Below, in pieces: positions 10,995 to 32,700 of a stretch of DNA of 64,000 bases. Position numbers and translations under genes: made by a program. This DNA comes from Pandoraea anhela (lineage in GTDB: Bacteria; Pseudomonadota; Gammaproteobacteria; Burkholderiales; Burkholderiaceae), in contig NZ_CABPSB010000024.1 of assembly GCF_902459655.1 (NCBI RefSeq), positions 1 to 64,000 of the forward strand. Reading direction: 5' to 3'. Position 1 is the stretch's first letter, and every line of letters begins with the position of its first letter. Under the pieces are notes generated by a model that had not been told where the DNA came from, did not search any database, and was given only the letters and a program-made list of their open reading frames with translations.

Positions 10995-12941
10995 ATGCCA
11001 CCATCTACCGAGTCCGCACACGCGCGCCGTGTGCTGCGCGTCTTGCAGGGCCAGCCGCCGGCGGGCGGCGCTGCGACGGATCCGAACATCGCCAGTTCGT
11101 GGCGTCGCTGTCTGGATACGCATGCGCTCGACCCGGGCGCACGCATGGCGCCGCGCGTGCTCGAATCCTCGCAACTGCGCGAGCGACGCAGCGCGTTGGC
11201 GTGTCTGCGCAGCGTCTCGATGCCGGTGCTGGAGCGTTTGCAGCGACAGTTGATGAACCCGCGTCAGGCGGTGTTGCTGACGGCGCCCGACGGCGTGATC
11301 GTCGACTCGCGTCTGCACGACGGCACCCGCGACGATTTTCATCGGGCCGGGTTATGGCCGGGGGCAGACTGGAGCGAGTCGAGTGAAGGCACGAACGGCA
11401 TCGGGACCTGTGCGGTCGAACGCGCGCCCGTCATCATCTGTCAGCAGGATCACTTTCGCGCGCTTCACACGCCGCTTACCTGCACGGCAAGCCCGGTGTT
11501 CGCGCCGCAGGGCGATCTGCTCGCGGTGATCGACGTGTCGTGCACCACGGCAGACGTCACGCGTCAGAGCCAGTTTCACACGCTCGCTCTGGTCAATCTC
11601 TCGGCGAAGGTCGTGGAGAGCGAGTATTTCTTTCAGCACTATCGTGACGAGTGGCTGTTGCAATTGCAGGAGCAACCCGATCATCTCGGCGGATTCGCGC
11701 AGGCGCTGCTCGCATTCGACGATGCAGGCCACGTGCTCGCCGCCAATCAGAGCGCATTGAACTGTCTGGGCGCGACACGCGAGGAGATCGTCGGCACGCG
11801 CATCGACCGCTGGTTCGCGCAGACGCTCGACACGTTGCTGGCACAAGCGCACCCCGCGCCGAGCGCCTGCTGGCCGATTCGCACCCATGCGGGGGCGCCG
11901 TTGCTGGCGATGTTGCGTGCGCCGGCACGCGCGGCGCGTCGCGGCGGCCCTTCCGGCGGGCCGGGCATGCCGGGCGCCGGGCGCCATGCGCTCGCACAGG
12001 TGACGGCCGATCCGTTTGCCGATCCCGCGTTGGCGCGCGCATTCTCCCGCGCCTGCCGGGTGTTTTCGCATGACGTTCCCGTGCTGATTCGCGGCGAGAC
12101 GGGCAGCGGCAAGGAAGTGTTCGCACGTGCCGTGCATGCGGCGAGCGCTCGCTCGGATGGCCCCTTCGTCGCGCTCAATTGCGCGGCCATCCCGGAGTCG
12201 CTGATCGAGAGCGAGTTGTTCGGTTACGTGGGTGGAAGCTTCACCGGGGCCCGCAAAGAGGGGATGAACGGCAAGCTGTGGCAGGCGAACGGCGGCACGT
12301 TGTTCCTCGACGAGATCGGCGACATGCCGTTCGCGATGCAGACACGGTTGCTGCGCGTGCTGGAAGATCGAATGGTGTCGCCGCTGGGCGGCGGCGAAGC
12401 GGTGCCGCTCGACATCCGCGTGCTCAGCGCCACGCACCGCGATCTGGCCGAGCGCATTGCCGAGCGACAATTCCGCGAGGATCTCTTCTATCGTCTGAGC
12501 GGACTCGAAGTCACGGTGCCGCCGCTGCGCGAACGGGAAGACAAGCTCGACCTGATCCGGCGTCTGTTGGCGCAGGCCGGCGCGAACGATCAGCATGGCG
12601 CGATTCATCTGACGGAGGACGCGCAGGATGGCCTGTGCCGCTATGCGTGGCCGGGCAATGTGCGTCAGATGCGCAGCGTGATCCGCACGTTGGCGGCGCT
12701 CAGCGAGAACGGTGTCGTCACGCTCGACGATCTGCCCGACGAAGTGCGCAACGCCGCGACGTCGGACGCTGCGCCGCCGGACGACCCTGCGGAAGCCCCG
12801 CTGGAGGCCGCGGAGCGTCAGGCGTTGCGCGCCGCGCTCGACGCCTGTCAGGGGCAGGTGAGCGCTGCGGCCCGACGCCTTGGCGTGAGCCGCAACACGT
12901 TGTACCGCAAGCTTCGGCGCTTCGGCTTGCTGCGTGGCTGA
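10995..12941 (+). CDS. Sigma-54-dependent activator, AcoR/DhaR type
   Basis: A 648-residue enhancer-binding protein: N-terminal sensory region with a GAF-type domain (about 70-220), a central AAA+ domain with Walker A GETGSGKE (367-374), and a C-terminal Fis-type helix-turn-helix (about 610-648, SAAARRLGVSRNTLYRKL). The sigma-54 contact loop reads GSFTGA (414-419) instead of GAFTGA; the change is mild but involves a conserved residue. The ATG at 10995 follows GGGGGAGA. It is divergent from the aldehyde dehydrogenase gene, whose sigma-54 promoter it probably activates in response to an alcohol, aldehyde or acetoin-like inducer. There is no receiver domain, so sensing is direct. Confidence 0.92.
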   Translation: MPPSTESAHARRVLRVLQGQPPAGGAATDPNIASSWRRCLDTHALDPGARMAPRVLESSQLRERRSALACLRSVSMPVLERLQRQLMNPRQAVLLTAPDGVIVDSRLHDGTRDDFHRAGLWPGADWSESSEGTNGIGTCAVERAPVIICQQDHFRALHTPLTCTASPVFAPQGDLLAVIDVSCTTADVTRQSQFHTLALVNLSAKVVESEYFFQHYRDEWLLQLQEQPDHLGGFAQALLAFDDAGHVLAANQSALNCLGATREEIVGTRIDRWFAQTLDTLLAQAHPAPSACWPIRTHAGAPLLAMLRAPARAARRGGPSGGPGMPGAGRHALAQVTADPFADPALARAFSRACRVFSHDVPVLIRGETGSGKEVFARAVHAASARSDGPFVALNCAAIPESLIESELFGYVGGSFTGARKEGMNGKLWQANGGTLFLDEIGDMPFAMQTRLLRVLEDRMVSPLGGGEAVPLDIRVLSATHRDLAERIAERQFREDLFYRLSGLEVTVPPLREREDKLDLIRRLLAQAGANDQHGAIHLTEDAQDGLCRYAWPGNVRQMRSVIRTLAALSENGVVTLDDLPDEVRNAATSDAAPPDDPAEAPLEAAERQALRAALDACQGQVSAAARRLGVSRNTLYRKLRRFGLLRG

Positions 12942-12971
12942 CGGTCGTCGCGTAGGCTGCGCTCGGGCTCC

Positions 12972-12997
12972 CTCGGCTCTCTCGGCTCTCTCGGCTC
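12972..12997. repeat. 9-bp tandem repeat, three copies
   Basis: CTCGGCTCT occurs twice and then CTCGGCTC, between the convergent stops of the activator gene and creA. Confidence 0.85.
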
Positions 12998-13004
12998 AAC
13001 CGGA

Positions 13005-13469
13005 TCACTTCACCGGAATCGGCGTTGCCCGGTCCACGGGAACGGCGGTCACGCTGTTCTGCGGCGAGCCGTCGATGAGTTTGTCGGAGTAGGTGAGATA
13101 GACGAGCGTATTGCGCGCCTTGTCGACCATGCGCACGATGCGCAGCTTCTTGAAAAGCGGCGACAGGCCCTCCGAGAAGACTTCCTCTTCTTTGGGCAGC
13201 GGTTTCGAAAACGAGATCGGACCGACGGGGCGGCAGGCAATCGAAGCTTCCGCCTTGTCTTCGGCGAGACCGACCATGCCCTTGAGCCCGCCGGTCTTGG
13301 CGCGCGAGACGTAGCACGTTACGCCTTGCACCTTCGGGTCGTCGTAGGCGTCGACGACGATCTTGTGGTCCGGTCCGAGAAACTTGAATGCGGTGCTGAC
13401 GTCGCCGATCTTCTCGGCATGCGCCCAACCTGCGGCGAGCATCAGCGCCAGCGCGACTACTGTCTTCAT
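13005..13469 (-). CDS. creA: CreA family periplasmic protein
   Basis: A 154-residue exported protein with a clear signal peptide (MKTVVALALMLAAGWAHA, cleavage before EKIGDV). The mature part has the CreA family landmarks: VSTAFKFLGPDHKIVVDAYDDP, then GVTCYVSRAKTGG and ASIACRPVGPI, the two Cys probably forming a disulfide. The function of CreA is not known. I start it at ATG 13469; longer readings would place the signal peptide inside the protein. It sits alone between convergent and same-strand neighbours, with 134 bases to the next gene upstream. Confidence 0.9.
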   Translation of the reverse strand: MKTVVALALMLAAGWAHAEKIGDVSTAFKFLGPDHKIVVDAYDDPKVQGVTCYVSRAKTGGLKGMVGLAEDKAEASIACRPVGPISFSKPLPKEEEVFSEGLSPLFKKLRIVRMVDKARNTLVYLTYSDKLIDGSPQNSVTAVPVDRATPIPVK

Positions 13470-13603
13470 GAGAATGTCCCGTCGAAGGCGTAAGCGGCGA
13501 CCATCGCCGAGCACGCCCGCTGCGGATTCTACTCGCCTCATATGACCCATGCGACCGGCAGTCGCGCGCCGTCACCCCGATGCGAGGCGACGGCTTTCGC
13601 GAT

Positions 13604-15043
13604 TTACCACTTGTCGTCCTGCGCAGGCGCCGCCTGTGCGCCGGCGGACGACGGGCGCGTCTTCTCTGTCTGAGCGACCTTCGCCCCCGTTGCTGCGCCC
13701 GAGGGGGCCGCCTGAGGGTTCGCTTGCTGCGCCGCCTGAGCGGGGCGACCGGCGACTTCGCCGCGCACCTGAAGCCCGGCGATGGGCAAGGTGTCGAGGT
13801 TCAGGCCCGGGCGAACATTGTCGAGGTGCCCATACGACAGGTTTTGCGTCACGCGTTCCACGACCAGTTCGCAGCACGGGTTCTCGGTGCGTCCGAGGCT
13901 TTGTCCCGTCTGCGGATCCTTGAACTCGTTGCCCATCGCGACGACCGCATAGCGATTGCCTTCACGTAAGGCCTGCCCGCCCTGACTGACGACCACATTG
14001 GTTCCGTCGCGCGCGAGCACCGTGATCGGGAACGTCGATTGCAGGATCGCGCTCACGATGGCCTTGCTCGCCTGATCGGTCATCTCGGTGAGAATGCGCT
14101 GACTGTCGACACCGTTGCTCAGCGTGGTCGGCGCCGTCGACGGCATCGCGTTGCTCAGCGACCCGGCCGCAGTGACCTGACGTGTCGCGACATTCACCAT
14201 CTTCTGGGAGAGTGCCCAGCCGCCCGAGTAGCTCACCAACTGACGATCGCTCGTGCGCAACTGCCGTGCGAGTCGCGTGTAGTTGAAGGCGCTCACGCGA
14301 GCGCTCCACACCAGATCGGCGCTCGCGGCTTGAGAGAGCTTCGTGAGTTCCGCGCTCGGGGCCTGACCGGATGCGATGATATCGAGTTCATGTTCGATCT
14401 CCGGGCTCATCTCGCGATCGAGCACGGCGAAGCGACCCGTTTGCACCAGCGCGTCGCTCACGCGTTGACGCAGCACTGCCGCGACTTCGCTCGACGGCAC
14501 CGTGACGTCGCCCATCGGCAGACGGTCCTGCGCGAACACCACCGGTCCGATCACGACTTTGAGCTTCTGCATGTCGGCAGACGGCTTGAATTTGGCGATA
14601 TCGGCTTCGATGGTCGCCTTGAAGCGCTTGTCGATGACCCCCGGTGCGTCGAGGCTCAACACGCGCAGGTGCTGAATGACACCGCCCGAGCGTTGCTCAA
14701 CGATATCCGCAAAAGCGTTCGCGCGCAGCGACGCCGAGTCCTGATTCAGGCTGACATCGAGGCCATACTTCGCCACGACCGATTGTGCCTGCACGACTGC
14801 GCCGTTGACTTGCAGCAGCGCGAGTTTCATCGCTTCGAGCGTGGCTTCGCCGGCGGTGTCGCCAAAGCCGACCGCCGTCACCTTCTCGGTCTCGACTTTG
14901 CCGACATCGGGCACAGGGGCCGCAGCGGATGCCGATGCTGCGCTCGGCGCAGCGGTCGTTTGCGGGGTGTCGGCCGACTTCTCGGAGCAGCCGGCAATAA
15001 AAAAGAGGGCCGCGAGGGCCCCCGTGAGCGAGTTACGCATCAT
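13604..15043 (-). CDS. FlgT/CsgG-like lipoprotein, last gene of a four-gene exported operon
   Basis: A 479-residue lipoprotein: signal peptide with lipobox IAGC (Cys about residue 20) and a Ser/Ala/Pro linker. Three regions follow. About 45-160 (GEATLEAMKLALLQVNGAVV) resembles the FlgT N-terminal domain. About 165-300 (LKVVIGPVVF, ALVQTGRFAVLDRE) resembles the TolB/CsgG-type middle domain. About 350-435 (VVVSQGGQALREGNRYAV, then DPQTGQSLGR) resembles the FlgT C-terminal domain. FlgT stabilises the flagellar H ring and CsgG is the curli exporter; neither system is encoded nearby. The C-terminal 45 residues are low-complexity Ala/Gln/Pro. The start MM at 15043/15040 has no clear ribosome site. 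The function is unknown; an outer-membrane-associated assembly role is inferred. Confidence 0.75.
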   Translation of the reverse strand: MMRNSLTGALAALFFIAGCSEKSADTPQTTAAPSAASASAAAPVPDVGKVETEKVTAVGFGDTAGEATLEAMKLALLQVNGAVVQAQSVVAKYGLDVSLNQDSASLRANAFADIVEQRSGGVIQHLRVLSLDAPGVIDKRFKATIEADIAKFKPSADMQKLKVVIGPVVFAQDRLPMGDVTVPSSEVAAVLRQRVSDALVQTGRFAVLDREMSPEIEHELDIIASGQAPSAELTKLSQAASADLVWSARVSAFNYTRLARQLRTSDRQLVSYSGGWALSQKMVNVATRQVTAAGSLSNAMPSTAPTTLSNGVDSQRILTEMTDQASKAIVSAILQSTFPITVLARDGTNVVVSQGGQALREGNRYAVVAMGNEFKDPQTGQSLGRTENPCCELVVERVTQNLSYGHLDNVRPGLNLDTLPIAGLQVRGEVAGRPAQAAQQANPQAAPSGAATGAKVAQTEKTRPSSAGAQAAPAQDDKW

Positions 15044-15077
15044 GTTGTTGTGATGGGATGTGTCGGTTTGCCAGCGC

Positions 15078-15728
15078 TTACAGGGCGGCCAGTGCCTTCG
15101 TGGCGTCCGACGGCACTTCGATGCCGTTGCTGCGGGCGAAGTCGACGGCGTTCTTGAGCGCCTTGCCGGCTTCCGTGACCGAACCCGGGAAGTTCGACAG
15201 CACATAAGTCGCGCCACCGAGCGACGTCAGCGCCATCGGCGATGCGCTCTTCATGTTGTTGCCCATCGACGTGACGTCGTTGCGCATGCCGGCGTAGTGC
15301 ACCATGCCGAGCGCCAGATGCCCGAGGCCCTGCGCAAAGGTCTTCTTCGAGGCATCGTCGAGCACCGGCTTTTCCTTGAGCTTCGCTGCGATCGCGCCGC
15401 TGGTGTCGCCCACCGCGTTCACGGCCTTCGATGCGGAATCCTTGTCCTGCGTCGAGCCCGACGACAGTTGCGCTACCACGGCGGCTGCTTGCTCGGCTTG
15501 CGTCTTCAGACCCAGCGCTTCGCCCATCTTGGCGTTGGCGTTGAGCACGTCGACGTTGGCGGCGACGTAGTTCTTCACCAGTGCGGCTTGCTGGCCGCTC
15601 AGATCGACCGAGCTGTCGGACTTGCTGCCGCCGCCGACCAGGCTGGTCAACCCGCCGAGCTGCGCGTACGAGACGCCCGAAACGCCAACGAGAGCCGCCG
15701 CAACGGCGCAAGCGATGATCTTCTTCAT
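15078..15728 (-). CDS. Exported helical protein of the FlgT/CsgG-like operon
   Basis: A 216-residue protein with a signal peptide (MKKIIACAVAAALVGVSGVS, cleavage near YAQLGG). The mature part begins with a Gly/Ser-rich stretch (GGLTSLVGGGSKSDSS) and continues as Ala-rich helix with no cysteine. I do not recognise the family. GGAGAAGAAG upstream supports ATG 15728. It is third in a four-gene leftward run, 39 bases after the second gene and 34 before the lipoprotein gene. Size and composition fit a small periplasmic partner or a secreted substrate of the lipoprotein; that is inference from position only. Confidence 0.75.
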   Translation of the reverse strand: MKKIIACAVAAALVGVSGVSYAQLGGLTSLVGGGSKSDSSVDLSGQQAALVKNYVAANVDVLNANAKMGEALGLKTQAEQAAAVVAQLSSGSTQDKDSASKAVNAVGDTSGAIAAKLKEKPVLDDASKKTFAQGLGHLALGMVHYAGMRNDVTSMGNNMKSASPMALTSLGGATYVLSNFPGSVTEAGKALKNAVDFARSNGIEVPSDATKALAAL

Positions 15729-15767
15729 GAACTTCTTCTCCACGTAAGGGATGGTTGAATACGACAA

Positions 15768-16898
15768 TTAGCGCAAGCTGAGATTGGTGATCTGGCTGGT
15801 CAGCTCGCGTGAGGCGTTGTTCGCCGCCAGGCGCAGCGCGTTGGTGCGGGCTTCTTCTTCGGTCGGGCCGGTGCCGGCGTACTGCACGGGGCCGACGGAC
15901 GCGACGGTGTCGGGAATGGTCTGACCGATGTCGAGCAGCTTCGCGTTGACGGTCACGGCCACGCGCATCAGGCCCGAATTCGGATCGCGATCCGCGAGGC
16001 CGACGTCGAGCGTGCCCAGCGCGATGTAGGCCATCTTCGCCACGCGCATGCCCGAGACCATCGAGGCGAGCGTCGCGGGTTTCAGATCCATGCCGCTCTT
16101 GTAGTCGTTCTCGACGTTGGCGACTTTGAACTGGCCGCCGGTGTAGGGTTCGACGAGAGCGGCTTCGTTGACCTTGAAACCGGCTTTGGCGAACGTCGAT
16201 GTGAAGACTTGCGACAGGTTGGCGCTCGGAATCAGACGGAAGGTCGTGTCGGTGGCGCGGCGCGTCGTGCTGCCCCCGGTCTCGACCGAGGCCGTGCTGT
16301 GCACCGACGCACCGACCTTCGTGTTCGTCGACGCGTTGGTGCCGATCTGATTGCCGCGAATGTTCTCGCCTTCGACACCTTGCTCGGAAGCGTTAACTTG
16401 CGCGTTCACATCGACCTTGCGATCGACGCGTTTGTACACGCGATCGTCATATGCACGCGAGGTGCCGACTTCGCGCGACACGAAGATGAAAGCGAGCGGG
16501 GAGCGCGCTGCCGGGCCGCCCTTGACGACCGCCGAGTTCGACTTCACGGCGTTGCGCAGATTCGCCACGTTCAGCGAGACGCGCACGGCCACCGTGTACT
16601 GCTTCTTGTCGGCGTTCTCGTCTTCCGCGAGGATCGTGGAGTCGAGGATGTAGCGATCCGGCTCGGCGAGGATCTTCTGGCGAATCGCATCGAAGTTCTC
16701 CGACTCGGCTTCGCCGGCCTCGGCGTAGTAAAACTCCACGGCCTTCATTTGCGCCGCGGACAGGGCGCGCGCCTTATCGTCGCGCGAAATCGACCAGCCC
16801 TCGTAGGTCACGGTCGCCTTGCCGCGCGCCTGCTGCACCTGCGCCACGGCGCTCGACGCGAACAGTGCCGCAGCGAACAGCAAAATCAGTGTCTTCAT
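15768..16898 (-). CDS. Exported protein with a FlgT_N-like region
   Basis: A 376-residue protein with a cleavable signal peptide (MKTLILLFAAALFASSAVAQ). Residues about 25-130 (ARALSAAQMKAVEFYYAEAG, then YILDSTILAEDENADKKQY) resemble the FlgT N-terminal fold, also suggested for the lipoprotein two genes on. The middle (about 165-225) is Asn/Thr/Val/Gly-rich and probably flexible. The C-terminal half alternates beta-type segments and ends ASRELTSQITNLSLR. Its ATG shares one base with the stop of the gene before it (TGATG at 16896-16900), so the two are translationally coupled. No known function; probably periplasmic, in one complex with its neighbours. Confidence 0.78.
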   Translation of the reverse strand: MKTLILLFAAALFASSAVAQVQQARGKATVTYEGWSISRDDKARALSAAQMKAVEFYYAEAGEAESENFDAIRQKILAEPDRYILDSTILAEDENADKKQYTVAVRVSLNVANLRNAVKSNSAVVKGGPAARSPLAFIFVSREVGTSRAYDDRVYKRVDRKVDVNAQVNASEQGVEGENIRGNQIGTNASTNTKVGASVHSTASVETGGSTTRRATDTTFRLIPSANLSQVFTSTFAKAGFKVNEAALVEPYTGGQFKVANVENDYKSGMDLKPATLASMVSGMRVAKMAYIALGTLDVGLADRDPNSGLMRVAVTVNAKLLDIGQTIPDTVASVGPVQYAGTGPTEEEARTNALRLAANNASRELTSQITNLSLR

Positions 16899-18091
16899 CA
16901 CTTGCATAGCTTCATCAATCCCATCGTCTTGTCGATTTGCGACGAAATGTCCGATGCCGAAGCCGCGGACTTCACCCATGACGTGTCCTTGCCCGCGACC
17001 GACTCGGCGAGCTTCACGAACAGGCCGTTGACGGCGTCGTAGTAGGCGGGGAAGTCGTCCACCCACGTTTGCGACGCCGGTACCGGTTTCACTTCGCCGT
17101 TCTTGAGCGACGTGTTGAGGTAGGTTGCACCGGTCAGCGGCTCGCGAATGGCGACGTCCGCATAGCTGCCGTAGATGTAAGCGGTGCCGACCGCGTTCTC
17201 GCTGTACTTGATCTTCTTGAAGTTCTTGAGCGAGACGTCGATCTCGTAATCGGGTTGCGGCAGCTTCAGGTTGTAGATCGTGCCGTCCATGATCTGCATG
17301 GACATGACGTTGCCGATCGCGTATCCCTTCGAGTACGGCACGACCGGCACGCCGACGCGCGTGGAGATGGCTTCGCTCACCATGTCCGCCACCCAGGTTT
17401 GCGCGGCGGCAGGCGTCGCCTTCAGATAGTCGGGCAGCACGGCGGCGGCTTCGGGCGTGACGTCCACGTGCGTGACTTGCAGGTAACGCGGGGCCTGATC
17501 GGGCAGTTGTGCCTCGGCGAGGGACGCGGCGAAGCGCGTGTACAGACCTGGCTTGCCGTTGGCGCCGTCGAAGACCATGCGCACGCGATCGAGCACTTCG
17601 GCGCGCGTGGGCTCATGGTCGAGGTTGTCGACATAGCCGAAGCTGACCGGATACGAGCGCAGCACCGTCATCGACTTGAAATCGAAGAACAGCACCTGAG
17701 CGCGTAGCAAAACGAACAGTTTGCGAATGGCCCCGAAGCGTTCGACGGAGACGGTCTCGGCGTTGATGACCAGCGAGACCACGAGCGCCTGATCGCGACC
17801 CTTGAGTTGATCGATGGGACCGGTGGTCAGTTTGAAATGTTGCGGGGGATTCTGATTCGCCGCCGCGAGCAGACGCTTGTACGGCGAGTCGCCCGTTGCC
17901 TTCAGACCGGCCTCGTAAGCGCGTGAATAAGGGAATCGTTTGTCGATGCTGGCGGCGTCGCCGCCGTAGGCAGCCCCCGCAAAGGTCACGGTCTTGTCCG
18001 TGGTCTGGGCCTGAACCTGTCCCGCAGACGTCATCGAAAATGCCATCGAAATAGCGACGGCAAGACGGAAGAGATACCCGCCGGCTTTCAT
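16898..18091 (-). CDS. Exported protein, first gene of the FlgT/CsgG-like operon
   Basis: A 397-residue protein with a signal peptide (about 1-28, ending GQVQAQ). The mature part has mixed alpha/beta character with no recognised catalytic motif. A segment near 110-135 (ERFGAIRKLFVLLRAQVLFF) and FDFKSMTVLRSYPVSFGYVD recall proteins of the TolB/LpoB-like surface assembly group, but I cannot place it firmly. A single Cys lies near the C-terminus (MKLCK). It leads the leftward run of four genes and is coupled to the next by a one-base overlap. The 309-base gap upstream (18092-18400) is shared with the tRNA genes. Confidence 0.75.
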   Translation of the reverse strand: MKAGGYLFRLAVAISMAFSMTSAGQVQAQTTDKTVTFAGAAYGGDAASIDKRFPYSRAYEAGLKATGDSPYKRLLAAANQNPPQHFKLTTGPIDQLKGRDQALVVSLVINAETVSVERFGAIRKLFVLLRAQVLFFDFKSMTVLRSYPVSFGYVDNLDHEPTRAEVLDRVRMVFDGANGKPGLYTRFAASLAEAQLPDQAPRYLQVTHVDVTPEAAAVLPDYLKATPAAAQTWVADMVSEAISTRVGVPVVPYSKGYAIGNVMSMQIMDGTIYNLKLPQPDYEIDVSLKNFKKIKYSENAVGTAYIYGSYADVAIREPLTGATYLNTSLKNGEVKPVPASQTWVDDFPAYYDAVNGLFVKLAESVAGKDTSWVKSAASASDISSQIDKTMGLMKLCK

Positions 18092-18197
18092 ATTGTTATG
18101 CTCCCCACCGTTCCCCGTATTGCGCCCGCAACGCCGGACGCGAGATCGCGGAATACTGGATGACTAACGTTTTTCCGTCAATCGATTGCATAGCGAT

Positions 18198-18215
18198 CCT
18201 ATCTAATTTGATAGG
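18198..18215. promoter_or_regulatory. Inverted repeat upstream of the four-gene operon
   Basis: CCTATC-TAATTT-GATAGG is a perfect 6-base-arm inverted repeat, 107 bases upstream of the operon start at 18091 and in a locally AT-rich patch. On the minus strand a TTGACG (-35-like) lies between it and the gene, with only a weak -10 match beyond. It is an operator candidate for the operon; no regulator is adjacent. Confidence 0.4.
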
Positions 18216-18356
18216 TATTTCTCCATTCGAATGGACGGGAGACGTCGGTGTGTTGAATGCGAATCAACGCGGCTCGGAGAATGTCTTGTTTCTGGCGGTT
18301 CAGAGGGGCGTCTGCCGGGGATGTCCGCCCGCCGATGTCGCGGTGGGGCCGGGGAG

Positions 18357-18385
18357 TTGCGGGCTTTGGTGAAATGCGCTATAGT
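18357..18385 (+). promoter_or_regulatory. Sigma-70 promoter of the tRNA genes
   Basis: TTGCGG (18357-18362) and TATAGT (18380-18385) are separated by exactly 17 bases, ending 15 bases before the first tRNA. Confidence 0.8.
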
Positions 18386-18400
18386 CACGCCTCTTCGCGC

Positions 18401-18476
18401 GGGGGTATAGCTCAGCTGGGAGAGTGCTTGCATGGCATGCAAGAGGTCAGCGGTTCGATCCCGCTTACCTCCACCA
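18401..18476 (+). tRNA. tRNA-Ala (GGC)
   Basis: A 76-base cloverleaf with encoded CCA. Acceptor GGGGGTA pairs with TACCTCC (one G-U). The anticodon stem CTTGC/GCAAG encloses the loop ATGGCAT, giving anticodon GGC. The T-loop GTTCGATCC is canonical. Confidence 0.97.
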
Positions 18477-18493
18477 AACGAATGACGATTTTT

Positions 18494-18569
18494 GTCCCCT
18501 TCGTCTAGAGGCCTAGGACATCACCCTTTCACGGTGAGTACAGGGGTTCGAATCCCCTAGGGGACGCCA
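18494..18569 (+). tRNA. tRNA-Glu (TTC)
   Basis: A 76-base cloverleaf. Acceptor GTCCCCT pairs with AGGGGAC, followed by GCCA. The anticodon stem TCACC/GGTGA encloses CTTTCAC, giving anticodon TTC. It lies 17 bases after tRNA-Ala, probably the same transcript. Confidence 0.97.
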
Positions 18570-18645
18570 TCCAACGGCAGCGGTGTGATCAACGACACAT
18601 CGAAGCCGGCCGGCGTCAGATTCGGCAACGTACGACAAAGCATGA

Positions 18646-19047: not shown

Positions 19048-20187
19048 TCAGCCGGCTTTCGCGCGTCCGCCCATCCACGCGAGACGCTGCCGAAGGTACG
19101 CCTGCGCCGGCGCTTCCCACACGCGGAAGACGACCCGGGCGAGCGAGAACACCACAATCAGATACGCCGCCAGAAACCACGGGCTCGTTGCCGCTGTCGC
19201 GCTGGACATGCCCAGCCGTTGCAGCACGATCACCGTCGTGAGTTGCAGCGGGAAGTGGGTGAGATAGCTGGCGTAGGTGGTATTGCCGAGATCGGCGATG
19301 GGCACCGCCAGCCGCTCGGGAATCCACGGCTCGATGGCATGCAGCAACACGATCGAGACCGGTGCGATCACGGTCGCCGCCAGGTACTTCGTGCCGCCGA
19401 AGACCGCGCACACCGCGAACAATCCCGCATACGCCGCGCAGCACAGCAGCACCGTCGTGCGGCGGTGCGACTCGATCGCGTCGCGCCACCGTTCGTAGAA
19501 CAGATGTACCGCGCCGCCCATGAAGAAGTAGAAGGCGCAGAACACGATGTTCGATTCGCTGCCCTTGATGTGCTGATGGATCAGCAGGCCGCCGGCCGCT
19601 GCCGACAGACACATGATCAGCAGCGTCCACACCAGTCCGATGCGCAAATACCGCGCGAGCAGGAAGAACGCAACGTAGATCACGATTTCCGTCGACACGC
19701 TCCATACCGGTCCGTTGAACGAATCGGTGTAGGGCGTGAGCCAGCCGGACGCGAAGATCACGTTGACGAAAAAGTCGTACGGCGTGTTGTACGGATAGAC
19801 GAAGAACGCCGCGTTGTGGCGCACGTAATACGCCTGCAACAATGCCACGGCGATCAGCGTGACGATATGCAACGGATACAGCCGTGAGAAGCGATTCAGG
19901 AAGAACAGACCGCCGCAGACCTTGCGCGCCACGATCTTCGACAGATAGCGATTGAAGAAGATGAAGCCCGAGATCGTCCAGAAGACATTGACCCCGAGCC
20001 AGCCGAAATCGTAGAACGGTTGCAGCAGCCCGTAGAGCGGTTGCGCGGCGCGCACGACGTCGATGGAGGCCGTGTCGGCCCGGAAGAAGAAATGCTGGTA
20101 ATGCCAGATGAGCACTGCGAATGCGCTGAAAAATCGCAGAATCTCGATGCCGACCATGCGGCCTTTGGCGCTGCCCGTACTGCCCAT
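19048..20187 (-). CDS. Acyltransferase 3 family O-acyltransferase
   Basis: A 379-residue polytopic inner-membrane protein of the OafA/acyltransferase 3 family, which transfers acetyl or other acyl groups onto sugars of surface polysaccharides. The N-terminus has GIEILRFFSAFAVLIWHYQH with the conserved active-site His, then GVNVFWTISGFIFF and NRFSRLYPLH with the conserved Arg. About ten hydrophobic segments follow. It is the last gene of a leftward set after the DUF6492-like gene (47-base gap), so it most likely decorates the repeat unit made by this exopolysaccharide locus. Confidence 0.92.
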   Translation of the reverse strand: MGSTGSAKGRMVGIEILRFFSAFAVLIWHYQHFFFRADTASIDVVRAAQPLYGLLQPFYDFGWLGVNVFWTISGFIFFNRYLSKIVARKVCGGLFFLNRFSRLYPLHIVTLIAVALLQAYYVRHNAAFFVYPYNTPYDFFVNVIFASGWLTPYTDSFNGPVWSVSTEIVIYVAFFLLARYLRIGLVWTLLIMCLSAAAGGLLIHQHIKGSESNIVFCAFYFFMGGAVHLFYERWRDAIESHRRTTVLLCCAAYAGLFAVCAVFGGTKYLAATVIAPVSIVLLHAIEPWIPERLAVPIADLGNTTYASYLTHFPLQLTTVIVLQRLGMSSATAATSPWFLAAYLIVVFSLARVVFRVWEAPAQAYLRQRLAWMGGRAKAG

Positions 20188-20234
20188 CGAATCGGGTCCT
20201 GTTGGTTCGGTTGTGCGGCGCGTTGCACGCGGCT

Positions 20235-21224
20235 TTACTTGATGCCCGCGCCGTTGCCCAGCAGCTTCTTCATCGTCTTGAGCCCCTTGCGCACGAGCGC
20301 CGAATACAACTCCGCGCCCTTGAGCGCCGGATCGACGTGCCGCTCATACGGCTGGATCTCGATCGGGAAGTACGGAGACAGCTTCGCCACGACCTGATCG
20401 AGCGGAATCTTCGTGTTGCTCTGGACCACGGCGAAGAGCCCGTCGCTCTGCGGTGCGAAGTAGTGCGCGGCGTCCCACTCCTGCATTTTGTCGGCGAACC
20501 ACACGCTTTCGTCGGCATGCAGCGTGCGTTGCGGCGGCACCGCCTGCGTATGGTACTTGTCGAGCAGCCCGGCGCGCTCGGCGTTGAGCCAGTACAGCGT
20601 GTATTCCGTCCAGTCGATGGCGTAGTTCGCGAGCAGCACGCGCTTCCACTCGGTGCCGTTCACGGCTTCGAGCCGCTCCTGCAACGACAGGCACAGCGAG
20701 CGCGACAGCGTCGCGGGCGTCCACCATACCCCGTCACGGTCCAGATGCGGATCGACGTCGAGCAGCTTGGCCGACGCTTCCCAGTAATACGGCTCGACGC
20801 TGCGCCCTTTGAGGTGCGTGATTGCCCGGCCGTCCACGATCAGCGAGTGGTAATCGAAAGCGTGCGTGGCGAAGCAATCCGGATCGAAGATCAGGAAATA
20901 CTCGGTCTCGATCCACTCCGGGGCGTTGATCTTGATGATCTGCTGGCGATGCCAGTTACGAATCTGGTGCCGCTGCGAGAACTCGTTGAACGCGCCCATG
21001 TACAGCGATTCGTCGATCACTTCGATGGGGAAGTCGGCCCATGCCTTGGCGTAGCCGCGCACTTGTTCGACCTCGTCATGCGGCACGATGATCACGAAGC
21101 GGTGAAACAGGTCCGGTGTCGTGAAGTGGCGCAACGAGGAAAACAGAATGTCACAACGCCCGATGTTGTCGGCGTAGTGCCTTCCTCGGGTCTTGATCGG
21201 CAGGATCGCGCTGATTTGTTGCAT
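20235..21224 (-). CDS. DUF6492-like putative glycosyltransferase
   Basis: A 329-residue soluble protein without signal peptide. The N-terminal half looks like a GT-A fold: SAILPIKTRGRHYADN start, then FVIIVPHDEV and an acidic metal-site candidate YFLIFDPDCF near 110-119. The family resembles DUF6492 proteins found in polysaccharide loci; glycosyltransferase activity is inferred. It starts 18 bases after the stop of the Wzc-like gene and precedes the acyltransferase gene, so the three form a leftward operon. With the WecG/TagA-type enzyme at 31762 it is one of few possible glycosyltransferases in the locus. Confidence 0.75.
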   Translation of the reverse strand: MQQISAILPIKTRGRHYADNIGRCDILFSSLRHFTTPDLFHRFVIIVPHDEVEQVRGYAKAWADFPIEVIDESLYMGAFNEFSQRHQIRNWHRQQIIKINAPEWIETEYFLIFDPDCFATHAFDYHSLIVDGRAITHLKGRSVEPYYWEASAKLLDVDPHLDRDGVWWTPATLSRSLCLSLQERLEAVNGTEWKRVLLANYAIDWTEYTLYWLNAERAGLLDKYHTQAVPPQRTLHADESVWFADKMQEWDAAHYFAPQSDGLFAVVQSNTKIPLDQVVAKLSPYFPIEIQPYERHVDPALKGAELYSALVRKGLKTMKKLLGNGAGIK

Positions 21225-21242
21225 GATGGTCTGAACCGACGG

Positions 21243-23432
21243 CTAGAAGAACCGGTAGATGAAGCTCGGAATGTATCCGCGACGATGCGTGAGCGCTACG
21301 CCGATCAGTCGTCCGCCCGCGTCTTCGACTTGGGCCTTGAGGCCGGCGATGACCGGCTTGCGCGTCGCTTCGGCGCGCACCACGAGCACCGTGGCGTCGG
21401 CCAGCGACGCGTTCTCGATGCCGCTAAACGACTGGCTCGACGGCGGGGCGTGCACGACGATGTAGTCGTGCGATTCGCGCAACGCGTCGAACAGACGCGT
21501 GACCTGCTGCCACGACGACGGGATCGTACCGCTGCGCGGGTGCGCCACGACGATGTTGTGACGCTCGACCCGCATGAACGTGAGGTCGGCGAGGACTTGA
21601 GACGTCCCGGATTCGCCGGAGACGGTTTCCTCGGCGCTCGTCGAGCCGCTTCCTCCTCCTCCTCCTCCGTTCGACGGCCATTCCAGCAGCCCCTGCGCGT
21701 TCGGCTTGCCATAGATCGGCGAGTCCGGCGTCGAGGCGATATCCAGGATCAGAATCGGTTTGCCCGAGCGGTGCTCCAACTCGCTCGTCAGCCCCTGAAT
21801 GACGGAGGACTGCCCGTCGTTCCTGCCCGTCGACAAGACCATGACGACCTTGGCGTGCGCATCGGTGCTGCTGTTGATCGCGGCGATCATCCGACCGTAA
21901 GCCAGATGGGCGGGGCGTGCATAGGCCGGCTCGGCGCCCGCCGCTCCCCCGGCGCCTGCCGTCGCCGCCGCACCGCGCCGGTCGCCGCCCAGCAGCACGG
22001 GGGCGTTCACCACCGGCAACAGCAGGGCACGCTCGACTTGCTCGGGGCTCAGGAAGGTCTCGCGCAGGCTCGACAGGATCAGCACCGTCAACGCGGAGAG
22101 TAGCAAGCCGGCTGCAATCGACGCGGCGATCAGCAGGCTGGCCGACACGCTGCGTTGCGACGGCGGGAAGGGCGCCTGAATCACACGCACGTTGGTGCCG
22201 TTGATCTGGCTGACCTGACCCTGCTGCACGCGGGCGAGTTCGACCTGACGCGAGCGCTCTTTGAAGCTGTCGGCCAGAATGTCGCGCCGCGCCTGCAACT
22301 GGCTCAACTGGCTCGAAACATCGCTCATGCCTTGGAGTTTGTTGCGCGTTTCCTTGATCTGCGCGTCGAGTTCGGCCTGCTGCGCAAGGCCGCCGGCAAT
22401 GCTCGCGTTAAGCACCGCAAGACGCTCCTGCACCACGTCGTAGTAACTGTTATGACCGAGACGCGTTGCGGTCATCATCTCCTGACGCTGCTTCGCGATG
22501 TTCGCGCGCATGTCGGCGATCTGCTTGTCGAGTTGCACGACGAACGGGGAGGTCGCCATGTAGCGCGACGCGAAGTCCGCACGCTTGTTCTCGAGTTCGC
22601 TCAGCGAGCCTTGCAGGGCGTTGATCGCGCGACTGGTCTCGGAGTCGTCGGTATAGATCGGAATCGTCGAGCGTACGTCCTTCGTCGAAGCTTGCAGCGA
22701 CTTCAGTTCGCTGCGGTCTTGCGCGAGCTTGGCATCGGTCTCCAGCTTGCGCTGCACGAGTTGCGATTCGAGCAGCACGGCACGCGACGTCTGATCGTCG
22801 ATCTTCACGATGCCGTGCTTCTTCTGGAACGCTAGCAGATCCGCGTCGGCCTTGTCGAGTTGCTTGCCGACGTCGTCGCGCTGACTGACCAGCAGATTCA
22901 CGCGACCGGACGTGAAGATCGATGCGCGCTGACGGAAATATTTGTCGAGCAGACGCGCGAGGGCATCGGCTGCCGCCTTCGGATCGGTATCCGAATACGT
23001 GAGCGTGATGGTGTTCGCGAGGTCGTTTTGCTCAATGTGCAGACGCTTCTCGAAATTCTGCAATTCGCGGTCGATGTCGCTCGCCGTGGCGCTGGGGCCG
23101 AGTTTCGACAGGATGACGTCGCGATGCAGTTCCGGGCTCGACAGAATCTGCGCTTCCACACCGTTGAGCTGTCCCGGCGGCGGTTGCAGCGACACGCCGC
23201 CGTTCGGATTGTTCGTCTGATCGTAGTAGCCCGCGTTGAGCACCAGCAGCGTGGCCTGTGCGCGATACGGAATCGGCACGAACAGCGCGACGAGCACGCC
23301 CAGCGCCACGATGGCGAGGAACACCGTCGTGGCGATCTTGCGGTAGTAGAAAAGGGTGTTGAGATAGTCGCGGATCGTCACGTCGACGACCGCGGCGTGC
23401 CGGTCAGGCCTTGTTCTGGTCGTAATTGCCAT
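21243..23432 (-). CDS. Wzc/GumC-like chain-length protein with degenerate kinase domain
   Basis: A 729-residue polysaccharide co-polymerase. Wzz domain with TM1 near 33-53, a long periplasmic coiled region (about 180-400), and TM2 near 428-452. A C-terminal BY-kinase fold (about 520-729) follows. Its nucleotide site is ruined: the Walker A place reads STGRNDGQSS with Gln where Lys is needed, Walker A' reads LILDIAST, and Walker B reads YIVVHAPP without Asp. No C-terminal tyrosine cluster is present (ends FIYRFF). A poly-Gly linker lies near 590. It is divergent from wza and likely pairs with Wza in the export complex. Length control by tyrosine phosphorylation seems unlikely. Confidence 0.92.
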   Translation of the reverse strand: MAITTRTRPDRHAAVVDVTIRDYLNTLFYYRKIATTVFLAIVALGVLVALFVPIPYRAQATLLVLNAGYYDQTNNPNGGVSLQPPPGQLNGVEAQILSSPELHRDVILSKLGPSATASDIDRELQNFEKRLHIEQNDLANTITLTYSDTDPKAAADALARLLDKYFRQRASIFTSGRVNLLVSQRDDVGKQLDKADADLLAFQKKHGIVKIDDQTSRAVLLESQLVQRKLETDAKLAQDRSELKSLQASTKDVRSTIPIYTDDSETSRAINALQGSLSELENKRADFASRYMATSPFVVQLDKQIADMRANIAKQRQEMMTATRLGHNSYYDVVQERLAVLNASIAGGLAQQAELDAQIKETRNKLQGMSDVSSQLSQLQARRDILADSFKERSRQVELARVQQGQVSQINGTNVRVIQAPFPPSQRSVSASLLIAASIAAGLLLSALTVLILSSLRETFLSPEQVERALLLPVVNAPVLLGGDRRGAAATAGAGGAAGAEPAYARPAHLAYGRMIAAINSSTDAHAKVVMVLSTGRNDGQSSVIQGLTSELEHRSGKPILILDIASTPDSPIYGKPNAQGLLEWPSNGGGGGGSGSTSAEETVSGESGTSQVLADLTFMRVERHNIVVAHPRSGTIPSSWQQVTRLFDALRESHDYIVVHAPPSSQSFSGIENASLADATVLVVRAEATRKPVIAGLKAQVEDAGGRLIGVALTHRRGYIPSFIYRFF

Positions 23433-23637
23433 AGCGATGCAAGAAGCGGAAAGGTTGCCCGGCCACGATTGATGGTTTCAAGGCGCATATCTTACGCAAG
23501 AAAGTCCCCGGAAAGTCCCCCTGAATCCGCGATTATCCTAAATCCGACGCCGATTTATCGTGCTTGGCGAGACGACGGAAGTGCACTAGAGTACGGTCCA
23601 AACCGTGTAACCACCCCGGCCTCGTGCCATCTGTCCC

Positions 23638-24357
23638 ATGAACATGCTCCGCCCGGCCTGCGTACTGGCGCTGATGACGCTGACGGCCTGCACCCACACC
23701 TGGGTCGACACCAAATACCAGCAATCCGACCGCTTCGCGACATGGGTCGATTCGACGACGCCCGCACCGTATCGACTGTTGCCCGGCGACGACATCTCCG
23801 TCGTGCTGCCGTTCAACATCGAGCTCAACTACAAGGGCCGCGTTGCGCCTGACGGCACGGTCGCCATGCCGTTCGCCGGCAACCTCCCGGCGGCCGGCCA
23901 GACGCTCGCGCAGTTCGGTGAAACGGTCAACCGCGCCCTCGCGGCCAACCACATGACCGCGAACGCGATGGCCATGGTCGCGGTGACGCAGACCGCCGCG
24001 CACGTGTTCGTCGGCGGCGAAGTCGGCAAGCCCGGCGAACTCGCGCTCACGCCCGGCATGAGCGTGATGCAGGCGATCATCACCGCGCAGGGCCTGCTCG
24101 ACACCGCACGTACCGGCGAAATCGTGCTGATTCGCCGCAGCCCGGATGGTCGTCCGATGCTGCGCACGGTCGACGTCAAGGCGCTCACGCAACAAGGCGA
24201 TCCCGCGCAGGACATCGTGCTGCAATCGAACGACACTATCTTCGTGCCGAAGTCGTCGATTGCCGAAGTGGATCTGTGGGTCGACCAGTACATCAACAAG
24301 GCATTGCCGTTCAACAAGAACGTCAACTACGACATCAACGGCGCGCGCAGCTTCTGA
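23638..24357 (+). CDS. Wza-type polysaccharide export lipoprotein
   Basis: A 239-residue outer-membrane export protein with lipobox LTAC at about 15-18. The polysaccharide export domain is at about 40-125 (YRLLPGDDISVVLPFN, GRVAPDGTVAMPF) and a SLBB domain at about 125-205 (VFVGGEVGKPGELALTPGMS). It is shorter than E. coli Wza (379), the usual form for Burkholderiales with one SLBB domain. It is divergent from the Wzc-like gene and first of the rightward wza-wzy-GH44-wzx set. The start could also be the second ATG two codons later. Confidence 0.92.
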   Translation: MNMLRPACVLALMTLTACTHTWVDTKYQQSDRFATWVDSTTPAPYRLLPGDDISVVLPFNIELNYKGRVAPDGTVAMPFAGNLPAAGQTLAQFGETVNRALAANHMTANAMAMVAVTQTAAHVFVGGEVGKPGELALTPGMSVMQAIITAQGLLDTARTGEIVLIRRSPDGRPMLRTVDVKALTQQGDPAQDIVLQSNDTIFVPKSSIAEVDLWVDQYINKALPFNKNVNYDINGARSF

Positions 24358-24495
24358 TCGCTCGACGCCGGGTGTGGCGAGCCACTCGCGACACCCGGCG
24401 CCGTCCCCGGGATCGCACCACCGCCCGAACCGATTCGCTCAAGTCTAACCACCGAATTCAACCGCTTCGTGACAGCTGCGCAGCCACCCCTCGAA

Positions 24496-25821
24496 ATGGA
24501 AACCGCGCCGGGCAATGCGACCGGGGCGACGCACGGGACGCCGGAGATGCCGGTCCACGACGACCTGCCGGCCGTCTTTGCGGGCGGCCTGCCGCGCGCC
24601 TTCGTCGTCGGTTGCCTGGTGGTGGTGCTGCCGCTTTTCGGCCAGACCTTTCACTACATCGCGACGTTGTATCCGTTGTGGGCGCTCTCGAAGGCGTTCC
24701 CGATACTGACGCTGCCGCTGGTGCTGCGTCTGGGCAGTCAGCCGCGCTTTCCCATCACGCGGCAGGTATTGCTGAGTTTCGCGTGGCTGGTCATGGTGCC
24801 GAGCTTCGCCGCCGTCATCTATTTCAACGAAAGCTTTTTCACGAGTGTCACGGCACAGGTGAAGCTGCTGCCGATCCTGTATTTCTTTTCCTTTCTGGCG
24901 CTGCTCCTGATGCTCAAGCCCACGTTGCAGGAGCTTGGGCGCAGCTTCGTGATTTTGGGCGCGGTCATCGTCGGCGCGCTGATTCTGATGTGGCTGCTGG
25001 TGCCGGCCGACTGGTACAAGGAAACCTACGTCTTCGGTCAGGCGCCGTTCTTCACGAGCGACAGTCGCGGGCACCGTATCCGCATGTCGATGTACTTCCC
25101 GTTCATCCTGCTGTTTTTCTCCTATCGTCGAGCGTTCTTCGAGCGTAACGTGGGCTATCTCGTGAGTGTGCTCATCGGGCTGGCCGTGGCGCTGCTGATC
25201 GTGAAGTCCCGTGCGCTGGCCATCGGCATCATGGGGGTGCTGGTGATCAATACGTTCGTCTGGGCGCGTCCGCGCGCGCGCATCGGCCTGATGCTGGTTG
25301 CGCCGATCGTGCTTGTCGGCATTTTCTCGATGGGATACCTGGCGACGATTTTCAGCGCCAACGCCGAGACCGGCTTCGACACGCGTCGGATCTCGGCGCT
25401 GCTCGCGACGCGCTTTCTCGGCAACGACTCGCTGCGCTGGCTGTTCGGCGTGGGGACGATCAGTCCCGCGAGCGGCGACACGCTGACCACGTATTTCCAT
25501 CACTTCTTCTTCCTCGCCGACATCACGTGGCTGGGGATCGTGTTCGAGTACGGTCTGCTCGGCGCGCTCGTTATTTTGTGTTTTCAGTTGCGCGGCCTGT
25601 TTTTCTATCGGCGCCTGCGTGCGGAAGTCGAAGACGACTTCCTGGGCGCGCTGTACGACTATCTGGTCTTCGTGCTGCTGGTATCGTTTTTCTACCCGCC
25701 AACGCTCGCGCCAGGCGAAACGGCCGTCATTCTGGCGATCTTCGTCTACATCTGGCGCGCCGGCGGATTCGATCATCGTGCTGCCCCCCGGAGTCTCCAT
25801 GCGCGTATTGCCGCGCCGTAG
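24496..25821 (+). CDS. O-antigen polymerase/ligase-like (Wzy) membrane protein
   Basis: A 441-residue polytopic inner-membrane protein with about 12 hydrophobic segments and a larger loop around 300-345 (GFDTRRISALLATRFLGNDS), the layout of Wzy polymerases. There is little sequence signature, as usual for this group; the assignment rests on topology and place in the cluster. I chose ATG 24496, but GTG 24469 in the same frame is equally possible since neither has a good ribosome site. Its end overlaps the GH44-like gene by 23 bases. Confidence 0.78.
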   Translation: METAPGNATGATHGTPEMPVHDDLPAVFAGGLPRAFVVGCLVVVLPLFGQTFHYIATLYPLWALSKAFPILTLPLVLRLGSQPRFPITRQVLLSFAWLVMVPSFAAVIYFNESFFTSVTAQVKLLPILYFFSFLALLLMLKPTLQELGRSFVILGAVIVGALILMWLLVPADWYKETYVFGQAPFFTSDSRGHRIRMSMYFPFILLFFSYRRAFFERNVGYLVSVLIGLAVALLIVKSRALAIGIMGVLVINTFVWARPRARIGLMLVAPIVLVGIFSMGYLATIFSANAETGFDTRRISALLATRFLGNDSLRWLFGVGTISPASGDTLTTYFHHFFFLADITWLGIVFEYGLLGALVILCFQLRGLFFYRRLRAEVEDDFLGALYDYLVFVLLVSFFYPPTLAPGETAVILAIFVYIWRAGGFDHRAAPRSLHARIAAP

Positions 25822-27463
25822 TGCGTATTCCCGATGGATTCAACTCGTCGGCGCGGCCGTCTTGCTGTCGTCCGCCGCCTGTACCAAAGCCACGCCGGGC
25901 GGACCGCTCGCCGTGTCGATCGCCGTGGATGCGGCGGCCGATCGCCATCCGATCAATCCGTTGATCTACGGCATCAACTTCGGCACGACGGCAATGTTGC
26001 AGGACCTGCGCGCGCCGCTGAACCGCTCGGGCGGCAACAGCGCGTCGGCCTACAACTGGCGGCTCGACGCGCGTAATGCCGGTCGCGACTGGTACTACGA
26101 GAGCCTGCCCGTCAACCCGACCGACATCAACGATCAGTTCGGCGACCGTTTCGTTGCCCTGACGCAGGCCGCAGGCGCACAGCCGATCGTCACCATCTCC
26201 ATGCTCGGCCGGGTGGCGACGCTCTCGCGTTCGCGCGACCGGCTGGCGAGCTTCTCCATCGCCAAGTACGGCCCGCAGCAGAACTACGACGTGGACGGCA
26301 TGACGGACGCCGGCAACGGCATTCTGCGCGACGGCACGCCCGTAGTGAACGATCCGGACGATGCCACCGTGCCCGACGATCCCGCAAGCCAGCAGGCGCG
26401 CGTCACGGCGTTGGTGCAGCAGTTCGGACCGGCCCGCGCGGGCGGCGTGAAGTATTACGCGATGGATAACGAGCCGAGTCTGTGGCAGTTGATCCACAAC
26501 AACTCGCATCCGACGGGCGCACATGCCAGCGAAATCGCCGCAAAGGTGATTGCCTACTCCCGTGCAGTCAAGCGCGCCGATCCGGACGCCAAGGTGCTCG
26601 CGCCGGAAGAGTGGGGCTGGAACGGTTATCTGTACAGCGGCTTCGATCAGCAGTTTTCGATAACGCACGGCTACGCGCAGGCGCCGGACCGGCTGAAGGA
26701 AACCGGCGGCATGCCGTATATCCCGTGGTTGCTCACACAGTGGAAGCATGCCGGTCGTCCGGTCGACATCTTCAGTCTGCACTTCTATCCGCAGAGCAAA
26801 GAGTACGAAGAACCTGCGACCGGGAATTCGACGGCCATCGCGCTCATGCGCAACCGTTCCACGCGCAATCTGTGGGACCCGAATTACAAGGACCCGACGT
26901 GGATCAATAGCGTGGTTGCGCTGATTCCGATGATGCGTCAGTGGGTGGATACGTATTACTACCCCGGCACGCCCATCGCGCTCACCGAATACAACTGGGG
27001 TGCGGACACTCGCATGAACGGGGCGACGGCGCAGGCCGACATTCTCGGCATCTTCGGGCGCGAACGGCTGGACATGGCGACGCGCTGGGGCACGCTCGAC
27101 CCGTCGATGCCCGTCTACAAGGCGATCAAGCTGTATCGCAATTACGACGACAAAGGCGGCGAGTTCGGCTCGATCAGCGTGTCCGCCACCGTGCCCGATC
27201 CGGATACCGTGTCGGCATTCGCGGCGTTGCGCGAAACGGACGGCGCGATGACCGTGGTCGTCATCAACAAGCAACTCGATCGCGCGGCGCAGGCCACGGT
27301 CTCGCTTGCCAATTTTGCGGCGACGGGCATGAGCGAAGTCTGGCAACTGGCGGATAACAAGCTCGCGCGCGCGCCGGATGTCCCGGTGTCCGGCGGCGAA
27401 CTGCAAGTCGAACTGCCGCCGCAGAGCATCAAGCTTTTCGTGTTGCGCAAGCCGGCCAACTGA
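25799..27463 (+). CDS. Secreted glycoside hydrolase, GH44-like
   Basis: A 554-residue exported enzyme. The N-terminus (about 1-30) is a signal peptide ending in SSAAC, so it may be a lipoprotein, though Ser at -3 is not ideal. The catalytic domain resembles GH44: INPLIYGINFG, the acid/base Glu in AMDNEPSLW, and the nucleophile Glu in IALTEYNWG, followed by a beta-sandwich. GH44 enzymes cut beta-1,4-glucans such as cellulose and xyloglucan. ATG 25799 has CGGAG six bases upstream and overlaps the end of wzy. In a polysaccharide locus it probably trims the polymer made here, which hints at a beta-glucan-like backbone. Confidence 0.88.
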   Translation: MRVLPRRSAYSRWIQLVGAAVLLSSAACTKATPGGPLAVSIAVDAAADRHPINPLIYGINFGTTAMLQDLRAPLNRSGGNSASAYNWRLDARNAGRDWYYESLPVNPTDINDQFGDRFVALTQAAGAQPIVTISMLGRVATLSRSRDRLASFSIAKYGPQQNYDVDGMTDAGNGILRDGTPVVNDPDDATVPDDPASQQARVTALVQQFGPARAGGVKYYAMDNEPSLWQLIHNNSHPTGAHASEIAAKVIAYSRAVKRADPDAKVLAPEEWGWNGYLYSGFDQQFSITHGYAQAPDRLKETGGMPYIPWLLTQWKHAGRPVDIFSLHFYPQSKEYEEPATGNSTAIALMRNRSTRNLWDPNYKDPTWINSVVALIPMMRQWVDTYYYPGTPIALTEYNWGADTRMNGATAQADILGIFGRERLDMATRWGTLDPSMPVYKAIKLYRNYDDKGGEFGSISVSATVPDPDTVSAFAALRETDGAMTVVVINKQLDRAAQATVSLANFAATGMSEVWQLADNKLARAPDVPVSGGELQVELPPQSIKLFVLRKPAN

Positions 27464-27473
27464 GATCAGCGAG

Positions 27474-28898: not shown

Positions 28899-28913
28899 TC
28901 GCGCCGCCGTCGG

Positions 28914-29843: not shown

Positions 29844-29856
29844 ATGGCGGACGAGA

Positions 29857-32577: not shown

Positions 32578-32700
32578 GCGCGGTGGCCGCTAGGGCAGTG
32601 GTTTCCGCCAGCGCCACGATTGTCGCTGCCGCGTTCGCCGATATCGCGCCGGCGTTGTGATGCAATGAAGCCGTCTTGAAAGACGCCACCGAAGACGATC

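Follow-up and report, generated by a model that had tools for sequence, protein, structure and literature searches.

A four-gene unit occupies positions 13604 to 18091 of Pandoraea anhela contig NZ_CABPSB010000024.1, numbered within the 64,000-nt window that constitutes the whole stretch analysed, and we lean towards the interpretation that its products form a dedicated four-protein assembly, an outer-membrane-anchored periplasmic scaffold of the FlgT/CsgG/PelC kind. The unit comprises four leftward open reading frames (ORFs), running from 18091 down to 13604 in the order g1-g2-g3-g4 and located, like every feature placed within them below, on the minus strand. g1 (16898..18091) encodes an exported protein of 397 aa, g2 (15768..16907) an exported protein of 379 aa whose likely start, ATGCAAGTG, lies within the end of g1, g3 (15078..15728) a small exported protein of 216 aa, and g4 (13604..15043) a lipoprotein of 479 aa with FlgT_N-like, CsgG-like and FlgT_C-like domains. 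The genes and the signal-peptide-like N terminus of each product (judged by eye) are as the initial annotation had described them, and g4 has the lipobox IAGC. g4 is the only one of the four proteins matching a curated family, CsgG, and g1, g2 and g3 gave no meaningful match in Pfam or NCBIfam. FlgT-type and CsgG-type domains, known from flagellar and curli machines, are joined here in one lipoprotein, itself tied to three families that carry no Pfam or NCBIfam name. If the four proteins constitute one machine, H-ring-like parts would also be at work outside flagella. Literature searches of titles and abstract openings found no published description of the four-gene unit.

Besides the window, we examined 27 loci in context (L018-L028, L031, L032, L061-L063, L065, L066, L082-L090), not all of them independent, some coming from close relatives (L027 and L028 score identically). 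All four families were present in 26 of these loci, L090 having no recognisable g3, and the order g1-g2-g3-g4 was observed in 23, two of them in genomes from a different order within the class. Three loci were excluded from the count: L067 (genome G691), with a g2 match at E 4e-4 and no g1, g3 or g4 nearby, L064, a repeat of L031, and L029, a deletion remnant. The g2 matches in G612 and G671 also stand outside it, as does L136, whose g2-like and CsgG-like genes were identified from their position and by eye. Recurrence in 27 other loci indicates that the unit is not a product of chance. The initial annotation had suggested an undescribed complex and proposed conserved co-occurrence as its test; the joint presence of the four families favours a system, whose products may form a complex.

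The genes are under purifying selection, with ratios of nonsynonymous to synonymous substitution rates (dN/dS) of 0.04-0.15 for each gene in four Pandoraea comparisons per gene, and of 0.11-0.34 against a Comamonas metagenome-assembled genome (MAG). In addition, g1 and g2 overlap by 10 nt in the window (16898..16907), and 26 of the 27 loci tested have a start codon in the g2 frame exactly 10 nt ahead of the g1 end. The set tested was made up of the window and 26 others, L090 being left out because g1 and g2 are not neighbours there. In L089, a GTG at the overlap position is out of frame with its g2, which starts at 8173. We infer that the overlapping codons are the true g2 starts, the one in the window probably being 16907 (MQVMKTL), 10 nt inside g1, rather than an in-frame ATG at 16898 that would yield 376 instead of 379 aa. 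Translational coupling would probably keep g1 and g2 in fixed proportion. A sigma70-type promoter scan of 12900-18620 found none, with 0.9 expected.

The proposed assembly would sit on the periplasmic side of the outer membrane, where lipid-anchored g4, probably ring-forming by analogy with relatives of its fold, would provide the scaffold through its CsgG-like and FlgT_C-like domains. g1 and g2 would be soluble partners, g1 probably adopting the same kind of alpha/beta fold, and g3 a small subunit, probably helical as judged by eye. The terminal cysteine of g1 may lock g1 to another subunit through a disulfide bond.

The domain assignments of g4 come from hhalign profile comparisons judged against column-shuffled controls (20 shuffles for FlgT_N), the FlgT reference consisting of two sequences (L091 and L094) named from their FlgT_C matches and layout. 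The N domain (residues 50-152, 14588..14896) aligned with FlgT_N of the two FlgT proteins at 93% (score 40.5, shuffle maximum 14.6), while Pfam FlgT_N listed no match for g4 or its relatives. The middle domain (residues 155-335, 14039..14581) aligned with CsgG-type proteins at 98% (score 89.2, shuffle maximum 13.7). The C domain (residues 336-430, 13754..14038) aligned with the two FlgT proteins at 97.1% (score 58.6, shuffle maximum 14.1) and with CsgG+FlgT_C proteins at 99% (score 100.9, shuffle maximum 14.0). Pfam FlgT_C was matched by 1 of 20 g4 sequences (E 0.072) and FlgT_M by 3 (best E 0.077), and a mixed FlgT and CsgG+FlgT_C profile aligned with g4 across 260 columns at 99.7%. The best match in a PDB profile search was the type IV pilus protein TsaP, at the FlgT_C-like part (E 0.0085), followed by CsgG chains (E 0.17-0.19). 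The FlgT layout first proposed for g4 is hence borne out for the N and C domains, the middle being CsgG-like and unmatched to the two FlgT middles; the motifs TGRFAVLDRE (residues 202-211) and DPQTGQSLGR (residues 376-385) are present, and a single FlgT_N-like domain was found in place of the supposed duplicated one.

g4 passes the Pfam CsgG cut-off (26.6 versus 20.8 bits, a partial match to profile positions 44-102 of 210), and CsgG matches at E<=1 were obtained for 16 of 20 relatives. Both results speak for a CsgG-like secretion channel in which g4 forms an outer-membrane barrel exporting a substrate and g1-g3 serve as gate, chaperone or substrate. We consider such a channel unlikely. At the place that we take to be that of the first CsgG transmembrane hairpin (TM1), g4 bears a polar, Arg-rich loop (residues 254-281, 14201..14284, placed by eye). 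Across g4 sequences, the segments at the two hairpin places are 14-28 and 14-24 residues long, variable and polar-looking by eye, the first being shortened to 14-23 residues in 8 of 20; amphipathicity was calculated for CsgG alone. The two membrane-spanning beta hairpins of CsgG were not found conserved in g4 by eye. Since the loops at these places are polar and variable in length, a CsgG-type pore is improbable and we reject it as the common function, which weakens the secretion role suggested by the initial annotation. Furthermore, no curli-type partner was seen among the 20 window ORFs scanned or on visual reading of the regions flanking the other loci, no genome-wide curli search having been made.

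The FlgT resemblance of the g4 N and C domains would suit a flagellar motor accessory ring like Vibrio FlgT/FlgO/FlgP, to which we give very little credence. Pfam found no flagellar or curli family and no flagellar structural gene among the 20 other window ORFs scanned, no flagellar structural gene stood out on visual inspection of the regions around the other loci (mostly from sequence starts), the unit is patchy in Pandoraea, and a search of the window genome with FlgT_C had no match, though the same search misses g4. The claim that partners of FlgT and CsgG are missing from the window therefore holds for the ORFs scanned, with the qualification that chemotaxis genes are present: a CheW-domain protein (in three stretches), CheR and a PAS-domain methyl-accepting chemotaxis protein (MCP) are encoded at 46920-51836. 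Compared with FlgT, the Vibrio-type flagellar H ring protein, g4 is alike in its N and C domains by profile, in export and in the order of its regions. It differs in being a lipoprotein, which to our knowledge FlgT is not, in its extra tail, in a middle domain matched to CsgG-type proteins and not to the two FlgT middles, in having no flagellar gene noticed beside it, and in its three partner genes from other families. It shares the middle domain with CsgG and CsgG+FlgT_C proteins and, unlike CsgG, has no conserved barrel hairpins by eye, an additional FlgT_N-like domain and no csg genes noticed alongside. As flagellar context and curli partners were sought and not found in the ORFs and flanks examined, nor barrel hairpins by eye, we file the unit as neither FlgT nor CsgG.

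A CsgG-family gene within a small group of genes for exported proteins is also what characterises the operon that we take to be the GNA1162/CsgG-type lipoprotein operon. Its partners differ from those of g4, and the copy in the window genome is separate from the window unit: a second CsgG-family gene (C3:357799) lies there beside a GNA1162-like lipoprotein gene, the latter named by eye.

g4 terminates in a low-complexity tail ending DDKW (13607..13753). Its last residue is Trp or Tyr in 19 of 20 sequences (Trp in 16, Tyr in 3) with acidic residues just upstream, and L090 ends SDDDD. This tail, together with matches to LpoB in 12 of 20 g4 sequences at E<=1 (best 4e-6), gives some support to a role in controlling or assisting an envelope enzyme, as LpoB does for peptidoglycan synthases, in which g4 would reach out and dock its tail on the enzyme. 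LpoB-like stimulators act with one partner enzyme, whereas the present unit keeps four exported proteins together, and no enzyme gene was seen by eye to recur beside them; indeed, no recurring neighbour gene of any kind was noticed by eye across the loci. A helper of this type is accordingly, in our estimation, an improbable account of the unit. A DDxW search of the window genome returned nine pattern matches, five of them stop-terminated, with g4 as the sole long exported ORF; the other stop-ended matches are 15-66-codon open stretches that lack a start, and a general C-terminal DDxW signal was discarded. Among eight FlgT_C-bearing proteins of other bacteria, four (L092, L094, L098 and L099) end in Trp.

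A C-terminal cysteine is present in all 20 g1 sequences, two residues from the end in 19 and three in L090; in the window it is the penultimate Cys396, whose codon (16904..16906) has its TG in common with the g2 start codon. The remaining g1 cysteines sit in signal or N-terminal stretches, L089 alone having one elsewhere. Of the 20 g2 sequences, 15 are free of cysteine and the other five have two apiece, and g3 lacks it in 18 of 20. In g4, the vicinal pair Cys390-Cys391 (13871..13876) corresponds to a CC found past residue 45 in 14 of 20 sequences, with one cysteine in L032, L065 and L066 and a non-adjacent pair in L089. The g1 cysteine persists in L089 and L090, where the overlap is lacking, which suggests, in thin numbers, selection on the residue itself. 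A disulfide may be predicted between g1 and g4, with L086 and L090 speaking against it. Extending the scaffold interpretation, one can picture a new outer-membrane-anchored periplasmic machine distinct from curli, the H ring, Pel and Pqi, in which a FlgT-like lipoprotein ring would be covalently locked to a two-domain g1 via the C-terminal cysteine, the acidic-Trp tail would dock a cargo or effector, and proteases would be the cargo in some versions; we regard this elaborated version as doubtful.

The partner proteins were compared with known structures and families. Foldseek returned 13 matches at E<=0.001 for a g1 model built from ten sequences, namely Cj1090c, HpaA (4 chains), an LPHT ring chain, FlgT 3w1e, the A. 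baumannii minor lipoprotein 5tse, GNA1162, an H. pylori haemagglutinin homologue (2 chains) and XCC0632 (2 chains), followed by LptE, PelC and CsgG chains at E 1e-3 to 4e-3. These matches presumably represent one fold. With the PqiC/PelC/LptE lipoprotein fold, the weak g1 model shares a resemblance (E 1.5e-4 to 4e-3), from which it differs in that the window g1 has no lipobox and about twice the length, and that no transporter or polysaccharide gene belongs to the unit. PMC10897342 names 5tse LptE and describes PqiC, XCC0632 and PelC as ring-forming. The corresponding g4 model gave no Foldseek match at E<=0.001, only weak dodecin matches (best E 0.033), which serve as a rough contrast only. 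An internal duplication in g1 was tried and went undetected (0.4%). The FlgT N-terminal region that the initial annotation had perceived in g2 found no support (3.1%, score 17.5 versus a shuffled maximum of 16.1), and g2 against the g4 N domain reached 9.5% (score 20.8, shuffle maximum 14.0). A stretch of 25 columns near the g2 end does resemble the start of the g4 N domain (75%, score 31.3 versus a shuffle maximum of 15.9). For g3, a sequence search of the PDB yielded nothing significant (best E 0.47). Among PADLOC families, g1, g2 and g4 had no match at E<=0.1 and g3 reached 0.012 with one model; a defence system was dismissed, there being no good PADLOC match.

Several observations weigh against the four-protein scaffold. 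Both ten-sequence AlphaFold models are poor, with a mean predicted local distance difference test score (pLDDT) of 46.8 for g1 and 33.8 for g4, and the Foldseek matches listed for g1 (E 1.7e-5 to 4e-3) have low template modelling scores (TM-scores), at most 0.28 when normalised to the query. Because of the low pLDDT and TM-scores, the FlgT/PqiC/LptE-like fold of g1 is a lead only. Profile comparisons of g1 and g2 with CsgG, FlgT, g4 and each other gave nothing significant over whole profiles or domains, and the g4 middle was undetected against the middles of the two FlgT proteins (0.6%, score 16.6 versus a shuffle maximum of 14.9, with a thin profile). The lipobox, found in the window g4 and in most of the 20 g4 sequences, is absent by pattern in three (L065, L066 and L089), its matches in L032 and L090 are doubtful, and the real L082 site is a later one. 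In three g4 sequences, an Asp directly follows the lipobox cysteine, and in E. coli such an Asp leads to inner-membrane retention by Lol sorting. In L086 and L090, g4 has no cysteine past residue 45 and hence no mature pairing partner, and the sharing of TG by the g1 cysteine codon and the g2 start codon means that conservation of this cysteine is partly forced by the overlap. Finally, the unit is dispensable, orthologues being present in 12 of 32 genus genomes.

Variant units differ in order and content. In L032, L065 and L066 the order is g4-x-y-g1-g2-g3, and in L090 it is g2-g4-x-y-z-g1, x and y being additional exported proteins that match no family well (judged by eye for y in L065 and L066). 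In these variant units x has four cysteines with the same spacing and an acidic-Phe end; as a FlgT_N relative it was undetected (1.3% and 0.1%). An M48 protease adjoins the L090 unit. In genome G960 (L136, 204-8529), profiles identified g1 and g3, which flank a g2-like gene. After g3, in the same orientation, come an unnamed gene, a subtilase gene, a small gene, the gene of a trypsin-like protease and another unnamed gene. The two unnamed genes are related to each other (99.2%); their assignment as CsgG-like, made by eye, had no hhalign support, scores for the g2-like and CsgG-like genes of this locus being at most slightly above the shuffles. Trp is the final residue of both proteases and of the last gene's product, and the proteases hint at cargo in this single locus. 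These Trp-ended proteases and the M48 neighbour of L090 would suit a device that displays or matures secreted proteases, a reading we find scarcely probable: no protease recurs in the other loci by eye, and among the DDxW matches in the window genome g4 alone is a long exported ORF. The g1 of L089 (6939-8150) and the g3 of L136 (5659-6372) look lipoprotein-like by eye, unlike their window counterparts. Directly after g4, L089 carries two more exported genes of no known family (L089:11437-14306), one with a weak PADLOC LmuB match (3e-4).

Of 61 relatives searched, 32 belong to the genus, and 12 of these carry a full-length g4 orthologue; the 29 others have none. G010 has only a divergent g4 copy (38% identity), G014 combines a full-length and a divergent copy, and G008 has a fragment. 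A search for g2 across 398 genomes of the family gave 22 matching genomes, G691 being a spurious case. In samples that include the window genome, the g2 profile matched 6 of 398 genomes of the phylum, and the g1 profile 8 of 300 genomes of the order and 6 of 383 of the phylum; a single g2 sequence found 1 of 274 genomes in a class sample, the window genome itself. These low counts show a rare and sporadic distribution of the unit. Among named records, it is carried by eight Pandoraea entries, the Comamonas MAG, two Cupriavidus metallidurans records, among them strain CH34, which is amenable to laboratory work, and Caballeronia sp. SBC2. g2 also occurs in three genomes of one genus from a different order of the same class, of which G973 and G1057 were examined in context.

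Within the genus, the unit lies beside a pair of transfer RNA (tRNA) genes, tRNA-Ala and tRNA-Glu, in 10 of 12 carriers, and elsewhere in G011 and G013. creA follows on the other side, directly or after about 2.4-2.6 kb, in 7 of 8 named Pandoraea loci, the exception being L024; extra DNA of 2.4-2.6 kb separates g4 from creA in L018, L020, L021 and L023, and none does so in the window, L019 or L025. In seven genomes without the unit (G031, G004, G019, G012, G020, G028 and G016), creA lies at most 150 bp from the tRNA pair, and in G008 short pieces of g4 and of the region upstream remain, indicating together that the unit was lost at least once. Past the tRNA pair, the window carries exopolysaccharide-type genes (19048-34128), encoding an acyltransferase, a DUF6492 protein, an SLBB-domain polysaccharide export protein, a GMC oxidoreductase, a WecG-type glycosyltransferase and a sugar transferase. 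The acyltransferase is also present in genomes without the unit (G031, and G008, where the match runs to 23500), which argues that the exopolysaccharide-type genes are not tied to it.

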